DNA of 27,514 nt from the IMG/VR virus record IMGVR_UViG_3300037070_001046, positions 1 to 27,514 of that record; one strand, written 5' to 3'. Under the pieces are notes generated by a model. It did no database searches. It had not been told where the DNA came from and saw nothing but the letters and a program-made list of their open reading frames with translations. Of this stretch, positions 5,091 through 22,413 are shown in pieces; within the stretch, counting starts at the first letter, position 1; every line of letters starts with the position of its first letter. This DNA is from a virus. Both the position numbers and the translations under genes were made by a program.

Positions 5091-5402
5091 ATGGCTGCTG
5101 GAAACAATCGCGCAGTAGGTATTACGAAGGCTTATGTCGATGCACAGACTGGCCTTCATACTACCATCAATAATCACACCCATAATATCTACCCTCTTAC
5201 AAATGGCGGCGGTCTAACATATGGTGGAACGGCCACCAATTATCCTTATATTACGACAGCAACAAATGCCGACCTAACTATCAATGGAACAAGTATGAAC
5301 GAAATGATCAAGCTTGTAAATCAATTGGTTGAGCGGGTAGAAGAGCTAGAAAAGCTTGTAGCCGTTAAGTCAGTAGATGAAGAAAGTTACGACGTTGATT
5401 GA
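5091..5402 (+). CDS. Small tail-fibre-like protein with C-terminal coiled coil
   Basis: The 103-residue product looks like a miniature fibre. The N-terminal part is Gly/Thr/Asn-rich and contains ITKAYVDAQTG and NNHTHNIYPLT. The first recalls the (K/N)xYVD motif of the fibre repeats at 19320, the second the NHTH needle motifs at 20309. A short heptad stretch near residues 74-92 (LVNQLVERVEELEKLV) could trimerise it. It starts one base after the preceding stop and overlaps the Rad50-like gene, so it is embedded in the recombination operon, an odd place for a structural gene. It could be a virion component or a chaperone-like adaptor; function unknown. Confidence 0.65.
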   Translation: MAAGNNRAVGITKAYVDAQTGLHTTINNHTHNIYPLTNGGGLTYGGTATNYPYITTATNADLTINGTSMNEMIKLVNQLVERVEELEKLVAVKSVDEESYDVD

Positions 5403-8748: not shown

Positions 8749-8977
8749 CGAAATCAAGGAATTAAAGGCTAAGAAGGCCAAGGGTGAAACGGCCCTGACT
8801 AAGTATTCGACCCAAATCGAGTCAATGGTCGAGCAAAGGGACCGTCTAGTTAAGTCCTTGCAAGACGAACACGGTATTTCTCCTGACGAGTTAGAGAGTT
8901 ACCTAGAGAAGTTGGAGCAAAAGCGTGATGCGCTTTTGGCAGAAGCAAAAGAGAAGCTTGACAAGATTAACCTTTAA
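8735..8977 (+). CDS. Small coiled-coil protein
   Basis: Starting at ATG 8735, with a strong GGAGG five bases upstream, the 80-residue product is two long charged helices around a short break (EHGISPDELE, about 47-56). That is typical of an antiparallel coiled-coil hairpin. It overlaps the nuclease gene by 14 bases and the clamp gene by one. Length and heptads resemble a stretch of Rad50-type coil, and it lies between the two halves of the split Rad50-like ATPase, so it might be an accessory of that complex. This is inference; the family is not recognised. Confidence 0.8.
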   Translation: MNPLDEIKELKAKKAKGETALTKYSTQIESMVEQRDRLVKSLQDEHGISPDELESYLEKLEQKRDALLAEAKEKLDKINL

Positions 8978-10080
8978 TGAGATTCACAATTTCAAAGCAT
9001 AGTATGGACACGGCCCTTTCAAAGATCGTGTCCTTTTTGCCCTCTAGGGATCATCCGACACAGCCGGTGATGCTTTCGCTAGAGGATGGGGGCGTTTATT
9101 TATCTACCTCCATTCCCGAAGCGTCTGTTGAAACCTTTGCCGAGCCAGTAACGGACCTACAGCTTGCCAATGGCGAAGAGAAGTCCTCTTTTGCTATAAA
9201 TGCCAAGCTGCTTTTGGACGTGGTTAAGCGTGCCAATGCTGATACTGTGACCTTCGACTATTCGGCTGAGACAAATGTTCTACGGATCGCTGCTAACACT
9301 AGCGTATGGACGTTGCCTCTGACCCACTACACAAACGCTCACCCGGCTCCAACGGCCGAACACACCCAATCTACCGCTGCGGCCCTAGTGACCGCTCTAA
9401 AGGCCGTACAGTACGCCGTGGGAGAAGAGACAGGGCGACCGTATCTAATGATGTTGGACGTTAAAGAGGGAAGGTTTAGGGCAACCGATGGAACGCGATA
9501 CCATGAAGTTAATACTGGTAACGATAAACTTAACTTTTCTATCTTCTGTACCGTTGTTGCTCCCGTTATTGCCTTCTTAAATAGCTATGGTGCCGCTGAC
9601 GTTACGGTAGGTGAGTGCGACGAGTATACTCACTTCACTATTGGTGACGATTCACTAGCTGTTTCTAAGCTGACGGTTGCGTTTCCTAACTTTGACGATG
9701 TGTGGTTAACTCCACTTAGAACACAGACGCCTCAAATCCTTCGTGTAAATCGTGTTGCCTTGCTTTCTGCTCTAGAACGTGTACAATTAGTAGCAGATAA
9801 GGATAAGCCTCACGTCGAGATTGCGATGGATAGGCAGTCTATTACTCTTAAGTGTTCTCGTAAGAACGGGGCACAGGCATCTACGACTATTGATGCGAGT
9901 TGGGCGGGAGCAATTCGGTCCACTACGTTTAATATCAAGGCTCTATTAAAGACTATTAAGCTTTCACAGGACGAGGATTTAGAGATTCGCTTTACCAGAG
10001 AGACACGGGAGCGAAAATCGCCTCTAATTATCGAGGAAGAAGGTTCGTGGTGTCTACTGAATCAAATCAGGACGCAGTAA
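8977..10080 (+). CDS. dnaN: DnaN-type beta sliding clamp
   Basis: The 367-residue length and N-terminus (MRFTISKHSMDTALSKI) match the bacterial beta clamp, a dimeric ring that holds the polymerase on DNA. Typical segments are visible: FAINAKLLLDVVKRA in domain I, RFRATDGTRYH near 160-170 (the RLxATDG-type strand), and a third domain that ends here without the usual terminal MPMR(L) motif. T4-like phages normally have a shorter trimeric clamp instead, so this is a bacterial-type replisome part carried by a phage. The ATG overlaps the previous stop (TAATG). A cognate DnaX-type loader gene lies at 12252. Confidence 0.88.
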   Translation: MRFTISKHSMDTALSKIVSFLPSRDHPTQPVMLSLEDGGVYLSTSIPEASVETFAEPVTDLQLANGEEKSSFAINAKLLLDVVKRANADTVTFDYSAETNVLRIAANTSVWTLPLTHYTNAHPAPTAEHTQSTAAALVTALKAVQYAVGEETGRPYLMMLDVKEGRFRATDGTRYHEVNTGNDKLNFSIFCTVVAPVIAFLNSYGAADVTVGECDEYTHFTIGDDSLAVSKLTVAFPNFDDVWLTPLRTQTPQILRVNRVALLSALERVQLVADKDKPHVEIAMDRQSITLKCSRKNGAQASTTIDASWAGAIRSTTFNIKALLKTIKLSQDEDLEIRFTRETRERKSPLIIEEEGSWCLLNQIRTQ

Positions 10081-10325
10081 GAGCGCAAGTTAGCGTCAAT
10101 TACCGCTCCGGTCGAGCCGAGTATCACGGTATCTGGTTAAACCTTACCGAAGAGGATATGGAAAACGAACAGCCGACCCTTGGAGAGCTAGAAGAGATTG
10201 TAGAAGCCGCCTTTGAGGGTGGCGATGAAGGATTTTTGACGTTGGACAACGATAAGGGCCAGCGTGTCGTTATCAGACTACGGGAAGTGGAGAGCATTAG
10301 TGTCCACGGAGTTAGAAACACTTGA
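10050..10325 (+). CDS. Small unknown protein after the clamp
   Basis: About 91 residues from GTG 10050 (a second GTG at 10047 is equally in frame), preceded by GAGGAAGAAGG. It overlaps the end of the clamp gene by 31 bases. The N-terminal half looks beta-stranded (VSVNYRSGRAEYHGIWL), and the C-terminal half has an acidic helix followed by strands (RVVIRLREVESISVHGV). No catalytic motif is seen. Its position between the clamp and the C-terminal Rad50-like half suggests a replication or recombination accessory role. The family is not recognised. Confidence 0.7.
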   Translation: MSTESNQDAVRAQVSVNYRSGRAEYHGIWLNLTEEDMENEQPTLGELEEIVEAAFEGGDEGFLTLDNDKGQRVVIRLREVESISVHGVRNT

Positions 10326-11046
10326 AACAGAGCTAAATAACCTTGAACGGCAGTTAAATCAGCGTCAGGGTGCTAAAGAAATGCTGGAAAAGAAGTCCAC
10401 AGAGCTTCGAGAGCAGGTTTCTGCACTTGACGTGTCTATTGTTGACACAGAAAAGGCTATTTGGATTCTACAGCAGTACGCCGAGAGCCAGCAGAACTAT
10501 TTGACTGAGCGTATCGAAGGAATTGTCACTAAGGGGCTGCGTGCGGTCTTCCAAGACCCAACTTTGGAGTTTAAGCTTAAGTATTCAGAGACAAAGACCG
10601 GGGAAAAGAAGAAGAACCCCGAAGTCGCTATGTCTGTCAGGTATGAATCTGGCGGCGAAATGGTTGAGGGTAACTTAAAGAACACTTTTGGTGGCGGCCT
10701 GTCAGTTGTAGCCGCAACCCTTTTGCGTGTTGTAGTTGTGTTGCATCTAAAGGATCGTGTCGCACCTATTATTCTTCTAGACGAGCCTTTGAAGGATCTA
10801 AGCCCTGCGTATGATGGTGGCGACGATATCGCAAATGGATACCGAGAGCGAATGTCAGAATTTATTCAGTCATTAGTGTCAGAAACCGATCTACAAATCA
10901 TTATGGTTTCTCACGAACCTGAGTACGGTCGAATTGCCGATACCCACCATCGCTTCACTGGCGCTGTCGGAGAGCAAACCACCGTTAGAACAATTGAAAA
11001 CATCACAGCAGAGGTAGAAGATTATGGGATGGATGAATTTATTTAG
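10300..11046 (+). CDS. C-terminal half of a split Rad50/SbcC (gp46-like) ATPase
   Basis: The product of about 248 residues begins with roughly 75 residues of coiled coil. It then shows the C-terminal ABC-ATPase lobe of the Rad50/SbcC type: a signature-like TFGGGLSVVAATLLR, Walker B with PIILLDEP, a D-loop LKDLSP, and an H-loop IIMVSHEPEYG. There is no Walker A. It complements the protein at 5377-6555, which has Walker A and zinc hook but no Walker B. The start is uncertain. GTG 10300 has GGAG seven bases upstream and a 26-base overlap with the previous gene; GTG 10264 (AAGGG upstream) would add 12 residues. The coil is shorter than that of the N-terminal half, so the assembled coil may be asymmetric. 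Confidence 0.85.
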   Translation: MSTELETLETELNNLERQLNQRQGAKEMLEKKSTELREQVSALDVSIVDTEKAIWILQQYAESQQNYLTERIEGIVTKGLRAVFQDPTLEFKLKYSETKTGEKKKNPEVAMSVRYESGGEMVEGNLKNTFGGGLSVVAATLLRVVVVLHLKDRVAPIILLDEPLKDLSPAYDGGDDIANGYRERMSEFIQSLVSETDLQIIMVSHEPEYGRIADTHHRFTGAVGEQTTVRTIENITAEVEDYGMDEFI

Positions 11047-11059
11047 AAGGAAGCAGCCA

Positions 11060-11245
11060 ATGTACGCGCTTATCTTTGAAGTAGATAGGGGTGTGATTGG
11101 AGATACACCTGTTAGGGTTGTTATTCCTGACGAGGTTAAGCACCAGATTACAGAACATTTTAGAAGGAACCTTGGACGGACTGTTCCTGATCCTGCTATG
11201 TTCCATTTACCTCCCGGCGTGACACTGAGGATCGAGAAGCTTTAA
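11060..11245 (+). CDS. Free-standing portal-subdomain paralogue (61 residues)
   Basis: From ATG 11060 (AGAAGGA about seven bases upstream) the whole product aligns with residues 305-368 of the portal protein encoded at 16112. Shared blocks include ALIFEVD, EHFR and NL, and the C-terminal blocks P-A-x-F-x-L-P-x-G-V-T-x-R-x-E-x-L. By eye about 35 of 61 positions are identical, with one three-residue gap. The ORF stops where the portal continues into SRGQTDSGW. The codons differ throughout, so it is not a recent copy, and the maintained frame and SD argue it is a working gene. An in-frame ATG at 11024 would add 12 residues but overlaps the Rad50-like gene. Role unknown; it could bind or cap portal subunits. 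Confidence 0.8.
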   Translation: MYALIFEVDRGVIGDTPVRVVIPDEVKHQITEHFRRNLGRTVPDPAMFHLPPGVTLRIEKL

Positions 11246-11487
11246 TGGATTTTCATAAAGTATGGACCGATGAAGGTTCAACTCAACACTTTATCTCACA
11301 GGATGAAAGAAAAACTTCTTGTGGAAAAGACATTCCCGAGGTTAGAAAGACTACAACCACCAGCAAAGACGGTCGGACCCACCACGTCGTAATTCACGAT
11401 ACGATCAGAATAGGTGGAAAGAGAAAATGTCCTGCGTGTCAAAACTTCGGGCCAACTACTTTTACAATTAAGGTTAAAAATGACTAA
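11245..11487 (+). CDS. Small protein with possible zinc site
   Basis: This 80-residue product has three cysteines, a single one in TSCGKD (residue 26) and a CPAC pair near 62-65, with His residues between (HHVVIH). They could form a small zinc site. The middle is Thr/Lys-rich and beta-like. Its ATG overlaps the stop of the portal-like piece (TAATG), and its end overlaps the dUTPase start by 8 bases, so it is clearly in the operon. No family is recognised. A DNA- or RNA-binding zinc ribbon is plausible but unproven. Confidence 0.7.
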   Translation: MDFHKVWTDEGSTQHFISQDERKTSCGKDIPEVRKTTTTSKDGRTHHVVIHDTIRIGGKRKCPACQNFGPTTFTIKVKND

Positions 11488-11923
11488 AAAAGTCGTTCAG
11501 GTAAAGCAAGTATTTGAGGGAGCGATTATCCCTGAGCGTCAGTATACGGATGACGCCGGATTTGACCTAGCCTCACATGAGCAGGTAGTTATTATGCCGG
11601 GAAAGCGTGCGACTGTTGGCACCGGGATTGCAGTAGCTATTCCGAAGGGTTATGTCGGCATGGTCTGCCCTCGTTCTGGACACGCTAGAAAATACGGTAT
11701 CACGATTGTCAACGCTCCGGGGATCATCGACACCGGATTCCGTGGTGAGGTCAAAGTAATCTTACACAATTTGGACAAGAAGGAAGCTTTCTATGTCCAT
11801 CCGGGGATGCGTATAGCCCAGCTTGTTATTGTTCCTATTATCGGAATTCCTATTGAGCCAGTTTGGGATTTTGACGAGGAAGAAACCGAGCGAGGCGAAG
11901 AAGGATTCGGTTCTACAGGTTAA
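11480..11923 (+). CDS. dut: dUTPase (deoxyuridine 5'-triphosphate nucleotidohydrolase)
   Basis: All five conserved motifs of trimeric dUTPases are present in this 147-residue protein: DAGFDL, PRSG, the GIIDTGFRGEV block with its uracil-site residues, GMRIAQLV, and the glycine-rich C-terminal arm RGEEGFGSTG. The enzyme splits dUTP to dUMP and pyrophosphate, keeping uracil out of phage DNA and supplying dUMP for thymidylate synthesis. ATG 11480 is chosen because it gives the normal family N-terminus; an upstream in-frame start at 11414 would lie inside the preceding gene. It is the last gene before a new promoter at 11924. Confidence 0.95.
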   Translation: MTKKVVQVKQVFEGAIIPERQYTDDAGFDLASHEQVVIMPGKRATVGTGIAVAIPKGYVGMVCPRSGHARKYGITIVNAPGIIDTGFRGEVKVILHNLDKKEAFYVHPGMRIAQLVIVPIIGIPIEPVWDFDEEETERGEEGFGSTG

Positions 11924-11938: not shown

Positions 11939-12268
11939 ATGGCATCTTTAATTCCTCTACTATACAAGCGATTCGATAGGCCCGATCTGGTGTTGCAGTT
12001 CGGGGCGCGTGAGTGTATACTACAAGCAACTAGAAGTATCGCAGAGGACATTGAGAAGATCGACGGCGTAACCGGGGTTTGGGAAGTTGTAGATACAAGC
12101 TTTGAACACGGAATGAACGTCGTTGTTGCGATACTCCATATTACTTACAGTTCATGGACGCCAACCATCGAGCAGCTTAATAGAGAGCTACTTGCCGATG
12201 GGTTTGTTTACCGTCCTGAGTTCAAAAGCTACGAGTGTCGTTTAATCTTTGATGAATTGGGCAGTTAA
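11939..12268 (+). CDS. Unknown 109-residue protein, probably from a leaderless mRNA
   Basis: The product has a mixed alpha/beta pattern (VWEVVDTSFEHGMNVVVAILHI, ending with YECRLIFDELGS) but no motif I can assign. Its ATG coincides with the predicted transcription start of the extended -10 promoter just upstream, and there is no Shine-Dalgarno sequence. The last 17 bases overlap the clamp-loader gene, so it heads the clamp-loader unit. Placement suggests a helper of the clamp loader or a regulator, which is context only. Confidence 0.75.
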   Translation: MASLIPLLYKRFDRPDLVLQFGARECILQATRSIAEDIEKIDGVTGVWEVVDTSFEHGMNVVVAILHITYSSWTPTIEQLNRELLADGFVYRPEFKSYECRLIFDELGS

Positions 12269-13367
12269 ATACCGACCACGCACCTTCTCGGCCGTAAAGG
12301 GTCAGCCTGAAAAGGCGATCTTGTTTCATATGGTTAGGGAAGAATCCGTGCCGTCCGTTGTTTTGTTTTCGGGTCCACCCGGAACAGGTAAAACAACCCT
12401 TGCCCGTATCTTAGCGGCCTCACTTAATTGTGAAAACCCGCAGGATGGAGAGCCGTGTACCGAGTGCCCGTCTTGCGAATCTATTTATGCAGGAAACCAC
12501 CCGTCTGTACAAGAATCAGACGGAGCATCTAATGGTTCTGCCGAGGATATGCGGTCAATCCGTGAGGATGCATACATGGCACCTATCGGTCGGCATCGAG
12601 TATTCATTATTGATGAAGCTCATTCTCTTTCATGGCAAGCGTGGAACGTCCTTCTTAAGCTATTCGAAGAGCCACCGTCCGATGTTGTGTTCGTCTTAGT
12701 TACTTCTGAGCCTAATAAAGTGCCAGTAAAGATTCGAACCCGATCAATCAGCTTTGCCTTTACTCCATTGACGCCTAAGCACCTAACTGATCGTCTTACG
12801 TATATCCTTAATGAAGAGGACGCCGAGATTGAAGAGCTAGACACGATCATTGATCTGTCTGATGGTTCGCTTCGAGAGGCTATCATGCTTCTGGAACAAT
12901 CTATTCGAGCAGGCAAGCCTCCGGCAGAGCTTTATCGTGGCCGTGATGTATCTGTTGCATTGATTGCTGCGGCAGTTAAGAACGATAGGGCAGAGTGCTA
13001 TAAGCTAGCCGAGGAAGCGTGGCAGCATACCGGCAATGCAAAGGGTATTCTAGAAGGTTGCGGCAGAGTAATGGAGAAGATTCTCTTTATTAGACACGAT
13101 ATTGTGGTCTATGCTTCCGAAGGTCAGACCCGAACGCTTGACGACTTGGCTGTTAGTATTGATGACCAACAGTGGGTCGCTGGATTAGAAGCCCTTTCCC
13201 TGTGGTTGCCTCGAACCACGACTAAGGCACACGTCACGTTTGCCATTACGGACTTTCTAAAGGCACTTCATGGAGCTACGGTTCCGACTAGGCAGGCTCC
13301 CGTGCAGGATACGAATAACAGGCGTATCGGAATTGAGCAGGCATTGGAGAGTATGGGCTTTGAGTAA
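12252..13367 (+). CDS. dnaX: DnaX-type clamp-loader ATPase (gamma/tau-like)
   Basis: The 371-residue product begins VKYRPRTF and has Walker A GPPGTGKT (41-48), and the zinc module C60-x8-C69-x2-C72-x2-C75 exactly as in bacterial DnaX. Walker B is FIIDEAH (118-124), sensor 1 is VTSEP, the arginine-finger region is IRTRS, and sensor 2 is DGSLREA. It opens the sliding clamp ring and loads it at primer ends, using ATP. The length fits a gamma-like form without the tau C-terminal domains. ATG 12252 is preferred over the adjacent TTG 12249. No separate delta or delta-prime subunit is seen in the window, so the phage may use a homopentamer, supply them elsewhere, or borrow host subunits. Confidence 0.92.
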   Translation: MNWAVKYRPRTFSAVKGQPEKAILFHMVREESVPSVVLFSGPPGTGKTTLARILAASLNCENPQDGEPCTECPSCESIYAGNHPSVQESDGASNGSAEDMRSIREDAYMAPIGRHRVFIIDEAHSLSWQAWNVLLKLFEEPPSDVVFVLVTSEPNKVPVKIRTRSISFAFTPLTPKHLTDRLTYILNEEDAEIEELDTIIDLSDGSLREAIMLLEQSIRAGKPPAELYRGRDVSVALIAAAVKNDRAECYKLAEEAWQHTGNAKGILEGCGRVMEKILFIRHDIVVYASEGQTRTLDDLAVSIDDQQWVAGLEALSLWLPRTTTKAHVTFAITDFLKALHGATVPTRQAPVQDTNNRRIGIEQALESMGFE

Positions 13368-16111: not shown

Positions 16112-18088
16112 ATGGCTGATATTGACGATGATGACGAGAAGGTAATCAAGCCTTTTATCCTTGACCTAGGCGACTGTTTTGTTTCAGGCGCACAGGCACG
16201 ACAGGGTAATGCCGTCGATCTGGACAACATAGGTGAGAAAAGCGCACAGCCTGTAACTGCGGGTACTCCTGTCGATCCTTCTGAGACTGAAATGGATCGC
16301 CGTTATGAGGTTCTAGAAAAGTCCGGGTCGTATGCGATGTATTACGACTTTGATGCAGAACACGTCCATGAGCCGCCTTATCCTCTAGATAAGCTTGCCA
16401 ACTTGAATGAAATCTCGATGATTCGTCAGGCGTGTATTACTGCTATTGCCCAGAATGTTGTCGGACTTGGATATAAGATCACTAAAATTGATCCCAAGGA
16501 AGGCGAAGCTGACTCCGATCAGATTGCCGACGACATTGTAGAGCTATTTGAAGACTGGTCTACCCGAGATAACTCTACCTTTACCGAGCTTATGTATAAG
16601 GTAGTTTATGATGTAGAATCTACCGGCAACGGCTACATTGAAGTGTCTCGAAAGATGAATGGCGAGATTGACGGTTGGTGGCATGTGCCCGCGCCGTCTG
16701 TTCGTGTATTGAAGAGCCAGTATACCGATACCGACCGACAGAAGAATGAGCCTACTCGACCCTCTTATGTACAGTTAAAGGGTGGCGACAGGGTTCAGTT
16801 CTACCGTTTTGGTGATAAGGTTGAGTTTGACGAAGAGGGACAGCACCATTACCGAGAGGGTGCAGACCGTTACGTTAATGAAATCATTCACTTTATGATT
16901 TACAGCCCTAAGTCTCCGTACTACGGTGCGCCTAGAGACATTGCCGGTATTCTTTCTATTGCCGGTGACGAAATGGCTCGTAACCATAACATTAAGTATT
17001 TCAATAACGGTGCTACTCCTGAGCTTGCCTTGATTTTCGAGGTTGATAAGGCTGCCATCCCAACGATTGCGGGCGATCAGCCGGTCAAGATTAATATTCC
17101 TGAGAATGTTAAGCGTCAAATCTTGGAGCATTTTAGAAAGAACCTATCTTCTCCGACCTTTGAGCCTGCCCTTTTCTACTTGCCTGCGGGTGTAACAGTA
17201 AGGGTCGAGCGACTGTCTAGAGGACAGACCGATTCTGGTTGGACTAAGTTCCGTGACGCTAACCGAGCCGAGATTAGAAATATCTTTAGGGTTCCTCCGA
17301 TTGTTTTGGGTGATTCTGATGCAGGAAACTATGCTTCCGCGTCAGTTCAGAAGCAAAACTTCTTGGAGCAGGTAATTGTTCCTGCCCAAAACACTTTACA
17401 GCAGAAGCTAATGAATCTTATTTGGCCTGAGCTTGTAATGATTAAGCCTGCCACCGTACCTCCCGTCGTTGATGAAAACGGCGAAATGAGTGTGCCGCCA
17501 CAGAATAAGGTAGCTCCCGAAGAGGGTACCGGCGTCAATAAGAGAGTATGGGTTCTACAGTTTAACCAGATGCGTGTTTACGATAAGACCGTGGATGCTC
17601 AGAACGATAATATCTACGGTGGTCTTGGAGTTAAGACTATTAACGAAATGCGACGTGGTATTGGCCTTAAGCCGTTTGAAGACGGAGATAAGGCACCCGC
17701 TCCACCGAAGGGTGAGAACGGGGATACTGTGGGCGCAAGACACCCGGCTCCCGGTGACATTCGGGGTCTGAGGCTTGTAGACGGCTCTGGACGGACGGAG
17801 AATGGCGCAATCAATACGCCGCAGCCTCGTCGTGTCTTGGAGAATGGTGTCCCTGTTCCAGCGAACGCTTCGACTGTCGGACAACCCGGCGCGTCTTACA
17901 TGGGTAAGCGTGATGACGAGTTTGAAGACGAGAACGAAAACGAGAATGAGATTGAAATTCAGATCATCGGTCTAGAAGATGCAACCCCGGAAGACCTTGA
18001 ATTTGATTCTGAGGCGTATCTAAAGAAGATCGAAGACGGCTTCAATACTTATATCGACCCGAATGCAGGGTACAACGACACGGAATAG
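16112..18088 (+). CDS. Portal protein
   Basis: This 658-residue protein carries the hallmark of HK97-type portals near residues 385-420: an arginine-rich helix followed by FRVPPIVLGDSDAGNYAS and a helical stem with NFLEQVIVPAQNTL. Portals form the dodecameric ring at one prohead vertex through which DNA enters and to which the neck attaches. The N-terminus is acidic and probably flexible. The C-terminal 130 residues are a Pro/Gly/Asn/Glu-rich extension with an acidic ENENE stretch. Residues 305-368 are duplicated as a separate small gene at 11060. It has its own promoter and follows the large terminase, as is usual for packaging operons. Confidence 0.93.
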   Translation: MADIDDDDEKVIKPFILDLGDCFVSGAQARQGNAVDLDNIGEKSAQPVTAGTPVDPSETEMDRRYEVLEKSGSYAMYYDFDAEHVHEPPYPLDKLANLNEISMIRQACITAIAQNVVGLGYKITKIDPKEGEADSDQIADDIVELFEDWSTRDNSTFTELMYKVVYDVESTGNGYIEVSRKMNGEIDGWWHVPAPSVRVLKSQYTDTDRQKNEPTRPSYVQLKGGDRVQFYRFGDKVEFDEEGQHHYREGADRYVNEIIHFMIYSPKSPYYGAPRDIAGILSIAGDEMARNHNIKYFNNGATPELALIFEVDKAAIPTIAGDQPVKINIPENVKRQILEHFRKNLSSPTFEPALFYLPAGVTVRVERLSRGQTDSGWTKFRDANRAEIRNIFRVPPIVLGDSDAGNYASASVQKQNFLEQVIVPAQNTLQQKLMNLIWPELVMIKPATVPPVVDENGEMSVPPQNKVAPEEGTGVNKRVWVLQFNQMRVYDKTVDAQNDNIYGGLGVKTINEMRRGIGLKPFEDGDKAPAPPKGENGDTVGARHPAPGDIRGLRLVDGSGRTENGAINTPQPRRVLENGVPVPANASTVGQPGASYMGKRDDEFEDENENENEIEIQIIGLEDATPEDLEFDSEAYLKKIEDGFNTYIDPNAGYNDTE

Positions 18089-18154: not shown

Positions 18155-19309
18155 ATGAGTAGAGACACAACCTTTGTGATCGGCACAATTGTCCGTGCCG
18201 AATACCTGAATGCTGATCAGGAAGTAGATACCGGCCTTACTTGGGGTCTTCGTTTGGCCCAAGACGGCGTGGGTGGACTTGTCACGCGCCCTGCTGGTAC
18301 CGACCAGACTTCTACCGCTATTATTGGTGGTAAGCGTGCGTGGAAGAACACGGACAGTGACCCGGCTACTCCTACCGGCGCGGCTGGTCAGCGGGTTCTA
18401 TGGGCGACCACTTGGGGACCGCCAACTCCAACATTCCCTACCGGAACAGGTATTCTTCCTGATTACATGCTTGAAGTGCATGATGTTGGTGACGTTCCTC
18501 TAACACCTTATTACCGTATTCTAGGTACAACTGAGTGGAATGGCACCCAGAATAGGCAGGTCCGACTAACAAATGGTGTCGAGGCCGACGCCTTCCAGTA
18601 CAATTCTTTTGTATTGCACACTGTTACATCAGCTATTGATGCAAACAACGCGATGACCCTTGCCGCGTATACCGCGCAGGACGATGCTAACGCACACCTA
18701 TTTACTGTAGGTGTAGACAACGGCACCGAAGTAGATAGACGCTACTGGATTTCATCTAGAGGCGTGACTGCTTATACCCCTGTTAACATGACAGATGTAA
18801 TTCTAAGAACCAATGTCTCAGACCTTGGTGGAATTATGGTATCAACGGACCCAGATACGTTTAGCTTTACTGGATACGGTCTACATGCGTGGGGCGATGG
18901 AACATTTGCTCAGGATACTTTCCTAGAGCGTTCAGGTGTGGGTACCCTAAAGATTTCTGGTCTTCCGGGAGCAGATGCCACCCTTGATCTTACTCATATT
19001 CAGAACAGTACCGCACTTGGAAACACTTGGGTTAACTTCTTAAGTGATATTAATATGTATCCCGGTCAGGTTCTTCGTTACGACGGTGATCCTTTTGGGT
19101 CTATTCACCTAGCAGACGCAGCAAACGTAGCTCACCTAGGGGATGATCCCTACGGAAATCCAGAAACCTTTATCGGAGACAAGACATTTGACAGCGACAC
19201 CGTATTTAATGGCGAAGTTGTGATGACGAATGATCTTTCGTCTATTGAAATCAGCAACGGTAAGCGATCTAGAATCGCTACCCGAGCGTTCACGACGTTT
19301 ATGATGTAA
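18155..19309 (+). CDS. Virion appendage / tail-fibre-like protein
   Basis: The 384-residue product is rich in Gly, Thr, Asp and Asn with short beta-strand patterns and lacks enzyme motifs. The N-terminal part reads GTIVRAEYLNADQEV, a docking-like start. The C-terminal part (DADAANVAHLGDDP-like stretches and FIGDKTFDSDTVFNGEV) resembles the beta-structured stems that precede fibre repeats. It is the first of five adjacent appendage-type genes and has a strong GGGGAA Shine-Dalgarno. It is probably a base or adaptor to which the following fibre proteins attach. Family not recognised with certainty. Confidence 0.65.
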   Translation: MSRDTTFVIGTIVRAEYLNADQEVDTGLTWGLRLAQDGVGGLVTRPAGTDQTSTAIIGGKRAWKNTDSDPATPTGAAGQRVLWATTWGPPTPTFPTGTGILPDYMLEVHDVGDVPLTPYYRILGTTEWNGTQNRQVRLTNGVEADAFQYNSFVLHTVTSAIDANNAMTLAAYTAQDDANAHLFTVGVDNGTEVDRRYWISSRGVTAYTPVNMTDVILRTNVSDLGGIMVSTDPDTFSFTGYGLHAWGDGTFAQDTFLERSGVGTLKISGLPGADATLDLTHIQNSTALGNTWVNFLSDINMYPGQVLRYDGDPFGSIHLADAANVAHLGDDPYGNPETFIGDKTFDSDTVFNGEVVMTNDLSSIEISNGKRSRIATRAFTTFMM

Positions 19310-19319
19310 GGGATTATTT

Positions 19320-20309
19320 ATGAGTTGGTCATTTTTCACAAAAGAGGGCGTAGAAAAGATCGGTGAGTTTGGCATTGTCGGACTAACTGGTGGTGACGCT
19401 GATACCCTAGACGGGCTTGATAGTTCTCAGTATTGGAAGAAGTCTGAGGTAATTGCTGCGGATACCCTTGAAGGGTATGGATCGGCAGATTTTGTTATGA
19501 TTACCGGAGATACCATGACCGGAGCATTAATTCTGTCTGGTTCCCCAACTATCCCAACCCATGCGGCAAACAAAAGTTATGTTGACGCTCAGGCTGCCCT
19601 TAAGCTTAATCTAACGGGTGGAACGCTAACTGGACCTTTAAATCTTCCTGTAGCCGACCCCGTTAACCCGACACACGCCGCTCATAAGTCGTATGTAGAT
19701 TTCCAAATTGGGGCGACCGTCGCCGTCGCGGGAGACACGATGACGGGAACCTTGTTACTAGCAGGAACCCCGCCTCCGGGTCTAGGTGCAGTTCCTCGAA
19801 ACTATGTTGACGCAACTTTCTTACCTATTGCGGGAGGAACACTAACCGGACAAATTACACAGGCTGCTTCACCTACTTCTGGAACACACTTAGTAAATAG
19901 AAACTATGTTGACGGAGAAGTTAATACTCTAGAAACGTATGTTGATGATCAAGATGACGCAATTTATGACTATGTAAATGATCAAATTGCCCTTGTCACG
20001 TCTGGTGCTTCCGGGACTACCCTAACGTCTATTGATAATACTGATAGCCCGTACCTAGTATCCAACACGGACTCAGTAATTTTGTGTACTTCTACAGCAG
20101 GTGTCATTACAGTCCTTCTACCTTCTGGCGCACCTACAGGTAAGATTTATACGATTAAAGACGCAGCAGGAAATGCTGATACTAATAATATTACAATTCA
20201 GGGCGGCGGCGGTGAGCTTGTAGACGGCGTAGCTTCTTATCTTCTAGATACACCTAGAGAATGGGCTGTTGTTGTGTTCGATGGAACGAATTGGCAGGTA
20301 ATTGGATAA
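19320..20309 (+). CDS. Tail fibre protein with four fibre repeats
   Basis: The 329-residue product begins MSWSFFTKEGVEKIGE, has the common fibre sequence DADTLDGLDSSQYW (26-39), and then four copies of a repeat of about 28-38 residues. Each repeat opens with (G/A)GxTLTG or GDTMTG and ends in a (K/N)xYVD motif (residues 62-89, 99-128, 137-164, 171-198). A coiled stretch with YVDDQDDAIYDYV follows, then a beta-rich C-terminal domain of about 100 residues. Such repeats form trimeric shafts in phage fibres. AAGGGA precedes the start. The stop overlaps the next gene's start by one base, so the two are probably made in fixed ratio. Confidence 0.85.
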   Translation: MSWSFFTKEGVEKIGEFGIVGLTGGDADTLDGLDSSQYWKKSEVIAADTLEGYGSADFVMITGDTMTGALILSGSPTIPTHAANKSYVDAQAALKLNLTGGTLTGPLNLPVADPVNPTHAAHKSYVDFQIGATVAVAGDTMTGTLLLAGTPPPGLGAVPRNYVDATFLPIAGGTLTGQITQAASPTSGTHLVNRNYVDGEVNTLETYVDDQDDAIYDYVNDQIALVTSGASGTTLTSIDNTDSPYLVSNTDSVILCTSTAGVITVLLPSGAPTGKIYTIKDAAGNADTNNITIQGGGGELVDGVASYLLDTPREWAVVVFDGTNWQVIG

Positions 20310-21133
20310 TGGGTTTTTCTAAAACAGCTATTAAGAATGAGGTTGCTTCACCAGTTGGCACGCTTGTAGCGTTTGGTGGCGTTACTGCGCCTACAAATTA
20401 CCTTATTTGTACTGGACAGCTTCTAAATAAGATTACATACTCTGAACTGTTTGCTGTTATTGGACACAGATATAATGGCGGCGTTGATCCGGGCAGCAAT
20501 CAGTTTAGGCTTCCCGCAAATGGTCGCGTCTTTATTGGACAGGATACAGGACAGACCGAGTTTGATACTGTGGGAGAAACAGGTGGAGCCAAGACGCACT
20601 TACTTACAGTAGCGCAGCTTCCGTCACATGATCATGGTGCCCTTACTGGAAACGATAATGTAGACCACTCCCATTCAGGTACTACTTCTACTGTTTCTTC
20701 CGACCATACACACTCTGGTACCACCGCAGATATTAACCAGAACCATACACACTCTGGTTCAACAGGTGGTATTAGTGCAAACCACACACATACTCCTGCT
20801 ACTGGCGGTAGCTTCCAGTATTCTAATGGATCAAATATTTCGACTCCCAGCGGTTCATTCTATACCTTTGTAGGAATGTCTGCAAATGGTCAGTCTGGTA
20901 CAACAAGCTTTGTATCCTCTGACCACGGGCACGCATTTACTACAGGTACAGTATCTAGTGGTCACACACACGGCTTTGGTACAGGCGGTATTAGCGCAAA
21001 CCACACCCATACTATTACTACGGGTGGACGTTCTGCATTCCACCAGCACGCTATTACTGCTCAGGGTGGCGGCACAGCACATAACAATTTGCAGCCGTAT
21101 CAGGTTGTTACGTTCATCATTAGGTATCAATAA
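20309..21133 (+). CDS. Tail-collar-domain fibre tip with two His-x-His arrays
   Basis: Starting at ATG 20309 (TAATG overlap), the 274-residue protein has an N-terminal tail collar domain (PVGTLVAFGG, YSELFAVIGHRYNGG, NQFRLPANGRVFIGQD; about 15-80). HxH motifs follow at residues 107, 120, 133, 146 and 159, and again at 206, 219, 232 and 245, each exactly 13 residues apart, with a Gly/Ser-rich insert between the two groups. In T4 gp37, HxH motifs in a trimer bind a line of iron ions and form a stiff needle, and the same is inferred here. The end (NNLQPYQVVTFIIRYQ) matches the usual fibre terminus. It is likely a receptor-binding tip. Confidence 0.88.
   Translation: MGFSKTAIKNEVASPVGTLVAFGGVTAPTNYLICTGQLLNKITYSELFAVIGHRYNGGVDPGSNQFRLPANGRVFIGQDTGQTEFDTVGETGGAKTHLLTVAQLPSHDHGALTGNDNVDHSHSGTTSTVSSDHTHSGTTADINQNHTHSGSTGGISANHTHTPATGGSFQYSNGSNISTPSGSFYTFVGMSANGQSGTTSFVSSDHGHAFTTGTVSSGHTHGFGTGGISANHTHTITTGGRSAFHQHAITAQGGGTAHNNLQPYQVVTFIIRYQ
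20627..21049 (+). repeat. 39-bp coding repeat encoding His-x-His needle units
   Basis: Nine units, five at about 20627-20790 and four at 20924-21049, each with a HxH pair every 39 bases. It is a coding repeat inside a tail-fibre gene and not a CRISPR or noncoding array, since the units differ in sequence while keeping the protein motif. Confidence 0.75.
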
Positions 21134-21142
21134 ACAAAATAC

Positions 21143-21150
21143 GGTATACT
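21143..21150 (+). promoter_or_regulatory. Probable promoter before the second fibre set
   Basis: A -10 TATACT (21145-21150) preceded by CGG, in the 42-base gap after the fibre tip gene. No fair -35 is seen. Transcript start would be near 21157, 19 bases before the ATG at 21176. Two tandem copies of CTAGGTAA (21151-21166) follow directly, and AAGGAA lies about five bases before the ATG. Confidence 0.5.
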
Positions 21151-21175
21151 CTAGGTAACTAGGTAAGGAATACTT

Positions 21176-21490
21176 ATGTACGAAGACTATAAAAGATTAA
21201 CTCTTACAACTTCTACGTTGCCGACCGCGCAAACTGTTTTGTACACGGCACCGGCCAATAGTAGTGTCATTATTAAGCATATTCTTGTTAATAATAACAA
21301 TACCACTATTAATAGAAATGCGTCCCTTTGGCACGGCACGGCTAGGGTTTTGCCTACCGCTACTATTGATGCTGGTGGTTGGGGTGAATTCGAGGGCACA
21401 ATTATCTTGAATGCAGGAGAGACACTTTCTGGACAAGTAGACGCGGGGACTGACGTACAGATTGTAGTGTACGCTTTGGAGGTTTCCTAA
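21176..21490 (+). CDS. Small beta-rich virion protein
   Basis: The 104-residue product has a repeated strand pattern (TVLYTAPANSSVIIKHILV, DAGGWGEFEGTIILNAGE, QIVVYALEV) with no Cys. This suggests a small jelly-roll or beta-sandwich, like neck or fibre-attachment proteins. Its stop overlaps the next gene's ATG by one base. It has its own promoter with the tandem CTAGGTAA repeat. The family is not named; function as a virion component is inferred from context. Confidence 0.6.
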   Translation: MYEDYKRLTLTTSTLPTAQTVLYTAPANSSVIIKHILVNNNNTTINRNASLWHGTARVLPTATIDAGGWGEFEGTIILNAGETLSGQVDAGTDVQIVVYALEVS

Positions 21491-22413
21491 TGCCGTGGTA
21501 TTTCTATAAAAGAAACGGTTCCCAGAAAATTGAGAGGCGTGACGACGACCAGCCGGGTATTATTAAGCTAACCGCAGTTGGCCCATCCTTAACGGCAGGA
21601 ACCGAAGCCGAAGCCAAGAGTTATGGTGCTGGGTATTTGTATTGTAATGGTGCGGCTGTCTTAATCACCGAGTTTACTGATCTATATAATGCCTTTGGTG
21701 CAACGGATAAGTTTAAAGGCTCAAATCCTGTTATTGCCGGTCGATTTTATTTACCAGACTACAGGGACCGTTTACCTATTGGTAGTGGCACCGGCGTATC
21801 TATGGCCTCTAGGGGTGGTAGCCACGTATGGCAGTTCGATATTCCTGCTCATAAGCATCCTATGCCCCATAATCACACAGTAAATGCTCATAACCACCGT
21901 TTTGAGCATACGCATGGCATGAGAGGGCATTCACACACTATTGACCATTCTCACTCACAGGCTGCTGCGCTTATTGGTACGCAGCAGGGGTCAACAGGTG
22001 CAGGAGATTTCCAGAGAATTCAGTCATTGAGCGATTTGGCAGGGTCACACGGAGGCCATGCTGCCCCAGATGTTCGAGGAAATCATCAACATCGCATTTG
22101 GGATGCGGCAGATAATCCTACTGATACAATTCCTGCCTTTTCTAGAAGCCAGCATACCCATCTTGTAACTGTTCCTGCAATTAATTTTTCAACAGCAGCA
22201 AGTTCGGGAGCAGCAGCATGGGACGGTGCAAATTCACAGTCTGATGGAGTTTCTGGTTCATCAAGCGGATCAAACCCCTTTACAGAAAATGCTTCTCCAA
22301 CAACTGTAGCCGATCCAGCCCTTGAAACAGGCAATAATACGGGCACGATGACTACTACACCTATTACTCAGCGGCCTGCTCACCAGACCTGTAACTTTAT
22401 TATCAAGATTTAG
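21490..22413 (+). CDS. Second tail-collar fibre with dense His-x-His cluster
   Basis: The 307-residue product begins MPWYFYKRNGSQKIER, similar in pattern to the start of the protein at 19320. A collar-like region follows (YLYCNGAAVLITEFTDLYNAFG, FYLPDYRDRLPIGSG), then HxH motifs at 121, 127, 134, 140, 147 and 153, alternately 6 and 7 residues apart, twice the density of the neighbouring fibre. Further HxH pairs occur at 199 and 222. The C-terminus is Ser/Gly-rich and ends CNFIIKI. It is probably a second receptor-binding tip with metal-stabilised needle. Two collar proteins side by side suggest either alternate tips or two parts of one fibre. Confidence 0.85.
   Translation: MPWYFYKRNGSQKIERRDDDQPGIIKLTAVGPSLTAGTEAEAKSYGAGYLYCNGAAVLITEFTDLYNAFGATDKFKGSNPVIAGRFYLPDYRDRLPIGSGTGVSMASRGGSHVWQFDIPAHKHPMPHNHTVNAHNHRFEHTHGMRGHSHTIDHSHSQAAALIGTQQGSTGAGDFQRIQSLSDLAGSHGGHAAPDVRGNHQHRIWDAADNPTDTIPAFSRSQHTHLVTVPAINFSTAASSGAAAWDGANSQSDGVSGSSSGSNPFTENASPTTVADPALETGNNTGTMTTTPITQRPAHQTCNFIIKI
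21850..21954 (+). repeat. Coding cluster of His-x-His units with 6/7-residue spacing
   Basis: Six HxH pairs at alternate spacings of six and seven residues (13 residues per two). It lies inside the second collar gene and is a protein-level motif, not a perfect DNA repeat. Confidence 0.7.

Follow-up and report, generated by a model that had tools for sequence, protein, structure and literature searches.

A free-standing paralogue of a portal wing module among the recombination and nucleotide genes of an unclassified phage

The window analyzed here, a complete virus record of 27,514 bases from an unclassified phage, to which the view is limited, contains a short open reading frame that is, close to certainly, a portal-derived coding piece, a partial paralogue of the portal gene that the phage itself carries. 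The frame starts with ATG, runs for 61 codons and ends with TAA (11060-11245), and its predicted product is MYALIFEVDRGVIGDTPVRVVIPDEVKHQITEHFRRNLGRTVPDPAMFHLPPGVTLRIEKL. Judged against a structure model of the portal, it comprises exactly the beta-alpha-beta wing module that follows the last stem helix and precedes the tunnel-loop helix. A probability of roughly one third is given to the reading, better supported than any other with a function, in which the product is a translated mimic of this module that competes for portal contacts. The features compared are:

11060 to 11245 (end includes the stop codon), plus strand: free-standing portal wing-module paralogue, 61 aa, assigned by homology to the phage's own portal
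16112 to 18088, plus strand: portal gene, 658 aa, HK97-type fold (Pfam PF04860, E=3.6e-28)
17018 to 17215, plus strand: source module, portal residues 303-368 (beta 305-311, helix 331-344, beta 361-367), from BLASTP and the portal model

Residues 3-61 of the fragment align by BLASTP with portal residues 306-368, with 35 of 63 positions identical (56%), 46 of 63 similar and an E value of 2e-21, in agreement with the sequence-only reading, which had described an end to end alignment with portal residues 305-368 and some 35 identities. The alignment score was 181, versus 53 for the best among 500 shuffles of the fragment, and when all six-frame ORFs of 30 aa or more were compared with one another, this pair was the sole strong duplication at the protein level in the contig. 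The match extends from the start codon of the fragment to its stop, and no portal homology was detected before or after these ends. Searched against the domain collections, the 61-aa protein retrieved nothing from Pfam at E<=1 and, from PHROG, no more than a weak, unrelated match.

The identity of the portal gene is further sustained by its PHROG portal match (E=2.8e-36) and by the occurrence of HK97-type portals among the top Foldseek matches. In its structure model, which is of modest confidence (pLDDT 59 overall), a stem helix (275-299) is followed by a strand (305-311), a helix (331-344), a second strand (361-367) and a further helix (374-392), after which come a conserved VPP loop and a long helix. 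We take the latter two as the tunnel-loop region by comparison with published portals, namely that of R4C, in which a stem helix, a wing with kinked helix and tunnel loop, and a crown are described (PMC10276861), and that of P23-45 (PMC7234808). The ends of the fragment coincide with secondary-structure boundaries of this model. Modelled alone from a 19-row alignment, the fragment shows the same strand-helix-strand (E-H-E) order with a mean pLDDT of 82, and 22 of the 27 hydrophobic positions of the module remain hydrophobic in it. A structure search with the isolated fragment gave PDB matches that are weak (E about 1, Z about 3); portals make up most of the top rows and are matched at the equivalent segment, e.g. 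about residues 222-273 of the RcGTA portal. This structural evidence is supportive only, the portal-module claim being carried by the sequence comparison. The fragment is thus homologous to the wing beta-alpha-beta segment of HK97-type portals (PF04860; HK97 gp3, RcGTA Rcc01684), yet differs from them in holding a single wing module (portal 303-368) within 61 aa, versus a complete subunit of 658 aa in this phage, and in being devoid of clip, stem, tunnel loop and crown. Formation of a portal ring by the fragment alone is implausible.

At the DNA level the fragment and the portal share 63% identity, with 71, 76 and 41% of first, second and third codon positions identical, respectively; dN is about 0.31 and dS is saturated. 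Divergence from the portal module was simulated with the portal under constraint and the fragment either neutral or constrained, scoring the runs that kept the frame free of stops, retained at least 35 of 59 identical residues and had randomised third positions. Such outcomes arose in none of 400 runs of neutral drift in place at fragment branch lengths of at least 0.3 and in about 1% at 0.2, whereas with omega at 0.1-0.2, for branch lengths up to 1, 33-73% of runs produced them. Neutral decay in place is therefore excluded by simulation unless it is very recent. Codon bias in the fragment's frame exceeds that of all out-of-frame windows and falls within the range shown by the phage's genes, consistent with the earlier view of a structural-piece copy lying as a free-standing, open frame among recombination and nucleotide genes. 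Since first and second positions were kept, third positions randomised and neutral runs of this kind limited to 1% or less, the fragment diverged under coding constraint and has been protein-coding for most of its divergence. This constraint acted either on the piece as a gene of its own or, prior to capture, within another portal. The proposal that the diverged codons show the piece to have been kept under selection holds, in consequence, for constraint on the protein during divergence; it does not extend to constraint on a stand-alone gene, given that the observed constraint could stem from a donor portal.

The lineage of the fragment is indicated by a segment of about 15 residues, EVD...IPTIAGDQPVKINIP in the portal sequence, which the fragment and its own portal have in common and which is absent from the portals of Streptomyces, Rhodococcus, Rhizobium and Bacillus phages and from nearly all others aligned; the fragment therefore derives from the phage's own portal lineage. 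Only two portals, at loci L093 (3006-3212) and L094 (10579-10785), have an insertion at this place, in both cases different and longer; these differing insertions indicate that the loop between the first wing strand and the helix is a variable site of HK97-type portals. At residue 305 the fragment has Y, as the family does (F/Y), where the own portal has L; the codon preceding ATG 11060 encodes a proline matching portal P303; and the ITE threonine (ITE[HF]F) and the LPP proline of the fragment are also found in the portal of phage Targaryen. The module was accordingly copied either before the portal acquired its present form or from the portal of a relative. Measured against the family profile, 14 of 21 differing sites favour the own portal over the fragment.

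In order to find relatives, IMG/VR was scanned with single proteins (fragment, portal, terminase, RecA) and with a fragment plus portal alignment, and these scans were complemented by degenerate DNA patterns, tblastn of INPHARED and two GTDB scans. Neither the phage nor the fragment had a close relative in INPHARED, IMG/VR or GTDB as searched, with very near records possibly withheld, and the searches recovered only portal relatives at 20-32% identity and distant terminase and RecA relatives; with the fragment alone as query, there was no portal match in 50,697 phage records. The sole DNA-pattern match (L106) has in-frame stops and was set aside as due to chance. The best annotated homologues of the portal, at about 29% identity, are those of Stanwilliamsviridae (Streptomyces phages Circinus and Targaryen), which have one wing per record, like the other records searched, and differ from the fragment and its portal in being devoid of the segment of about 15 residues. 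The Targaryen wing as query found exactly one place in each of 170 phage records, and a wing profile gave one match per record in 36 of 38, always within a frame of full length (about 500-590 residues). Across 95 loci with a portal and their 968 kb of flanking DNA, no second portal-like stretch was present; a first-pass match of 34 aa in one of the loci (L055, E=0.004) was not repeated at E<=1e-3. A free-standing portal-module gene occurs in no other phage searched and is unusual.

The immediate surroundings of the fragment consist of the following features:

10264 to 11046, plus strand: SMC/SbcC-like coiled-coil ATPase, C-terminal half (phrog_15167 ATPase)
11024 to 11059, plus strand: possible 12-residue N-terminal extension of the fragment in the same frame, from ATG 11024, with a stronger Shine-Dalgarno
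11245 to 11487, plus strand: following gene, 80 aa, with cysteine pairs (CPAC)
11480 to 11923, plus strand: dUTPase (PF00692)

The order on the plus strand is SbcC/SMC-like ATPase, fragment, 80-aa protein, dUTPase, 109-aa ORF, clamp loader, terminase and portal, and the fragment lies within a gapless string of overlapping genes, the ATG of the 80-aa gene overlapping the fragment's TAA by one base (TAATG). There is no convincing promoter or terminator between the fragment and its neighbours, and scans for promoters, terminators, Rfam families and tRNAs yielded nothing, or nothing above expectation. The Shine-Dalgarno that had been called good in the sequence-only reading is indeed present at ATG 11060 (AGAAGGA), where it is moderate only (-4.0 kcal/mol versus -7.2 at the upstream in-frame ATG 11024). 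Initiation at the latter would yield 73 aa, with an overlap of 23 nt with the 3' end of the preceding gene, and the choice between the two start sites is ambiguous. As a homologue of the stem helix, the 12-residue extension was rejected, scoring no better than shuffles and showing no significant portal homology.

Among 50,697 phages, one relative of the ATPase itself was detectable, gene 2 of Microbacterium phage Magritte ('exonuclease', 29% identity). Magritte was discarded as carrier of a similar gene, given that an unrelated 122-aa gene lies downstream of its ATPase relative and that it has no wing match. Elsewhere in the region, 8977-10080 encodes a DNA polymerase III beta-clamp-like protein and 12249-13367 a clamp-loader-like AAA protein; clamp and clamp loader, RecA/UvsX, SbcCD-like proteins, a RuvC-like resolvase and the dUTPase all occur within 12 kb.

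If the fragment is a mimic, it would be translated as a 61-aa (possibly 73-aa) protein from a long plus-strand array that includes terminase and portal, and would fold much as it does in the portal. It would then pair with portal subunits, or with the normal partner of that wing face, and this pairing would restrain nucleation of the portal ring or procapsid before the capsid genes are fully expressed. This reading is drawn from the 56% identity across the whole ORF, the shared segment of about 15 residues and the module-exact ends, together with the E-H-E fold model, the 22 of 27 conserved hydrophobic positions, the fit of omega values of 0.2 or below and the TAATG coupling. With start and stop at the module borders and nothing portal-like outside them, a designed small domain fits better than a random piece. 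Counting against a mimic are the lesser resemblance of the fragment than of its own portal to the family profile (14 of 21 sites) and the finding of such a gene in no other phage. In somewhat broader terms, the phage could tentatively be regarded as expressing a module of its own portal as a separate early protein that controls ring assembly in a dominant-negative-like manner, or keeps a host sensor from detecting the portal.

A captured or relict fragment devoid of function has about the same probability as the mimic; it would have been left either by illegitimate recombination with a co-infecting relative or by the loss of a second, displaced portal. Y305, the preceding P303 proline and the threonine (Targaryen ITEFF) and LPP are residues seen in functional portals, the strong coding constraint could be inherited from the donor's full portal, and the simulation leaves room for neutral change of about 0.2 substitutions per site after capture; no relative with the same gene appeared in the searches. 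However, random capture normally leaves flanking portal sequence or a random tail, whereas the fragment has module-exact ends, with a start codon and Shine-Dalgarno on the left and a stop overlapping the next start on the right, and no other portal or terminase relict was seen nearby. A neofunctionalised module, having lost the portal contact and become a partner of the neighbouring recombination and nucleotide proteins, is unlikely: its position between the SbcC-like ATPase and the dUTPase, and the TAATG coupling to the small cysteine-pair protein, would suit such a role, yet its residues and hydrophobic pattern are still portal-like, several of the changes are of a portal-type kind, and its neutral charge (pI 6.8) gives no sign of DNA binding. 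An assembly chimera or annotation artefact has very little probability. Although the source is a single virus contig of 27.5 kb with no relative for comparison, a DNA identity to the portal of only 63% implies that the fragment is not a mis-joined copy, and it combines phage codon bias in frame with its place in the gapless, overlapping gene string.

Portal proteins are also known triggers of host defence: they are among the known Avs ligands (PMC12931631), and SpbK senses the SPbeta portal YonE via its clip domain, not the wing (PMC12847820). Both SpbK-YonE and AVAST (Avs) exemplify how host proteins can bind portal pieces as ligands (PMC12847820, PMC12931631), and an early fragment could occupy an Avs4-like or SpbK-like sensor without ring assembly, the gene being located upstream, among presumed early genes. 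This is improbable. The fragment holds the wing module and has no clip segment, so the earlier suggestion of a decoy for something that targets the portal finds no support in SpbK, which reads the clip (PMC12847820); in addition, no defence context is visible around the gene. The papers searched contained no case of an anti-defence protein built from a portal wing module.

Portal rings initiate procapsid assembly, and how phages avoid wrong or premature portal assembly is an open question. If the mimic reading is true, phages would derive regulators from copied pieces of their own structural proteins, and the 61-residue module would offer a ready means of probing or inhibiting a portal surface. 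If it was only captured, a portal piece would still have been transferred, with module-exact ends, into another operon.

Additional structural-looking genes were observed in the window. An ORF of 103 aa among the recombination genes (5091-5402) has a virion or fibre-type look (THNIYPLTNGGGLTYGG...NADLTINGTSMNEMIKLVNQLVERVEELEKL, with a coiled-coil-like end) and constitutes, within the replication block, a second small gene of structural appearance; it has no PHROG family and no INPHARED match. Between the portal and the fibre genes a major capsid or protease gene was not recognised. Directly after the portal, positions 18155-22413 encode several tail-fibre/collar-like genes with repeated YVDA and HTH/GHTH motifs.
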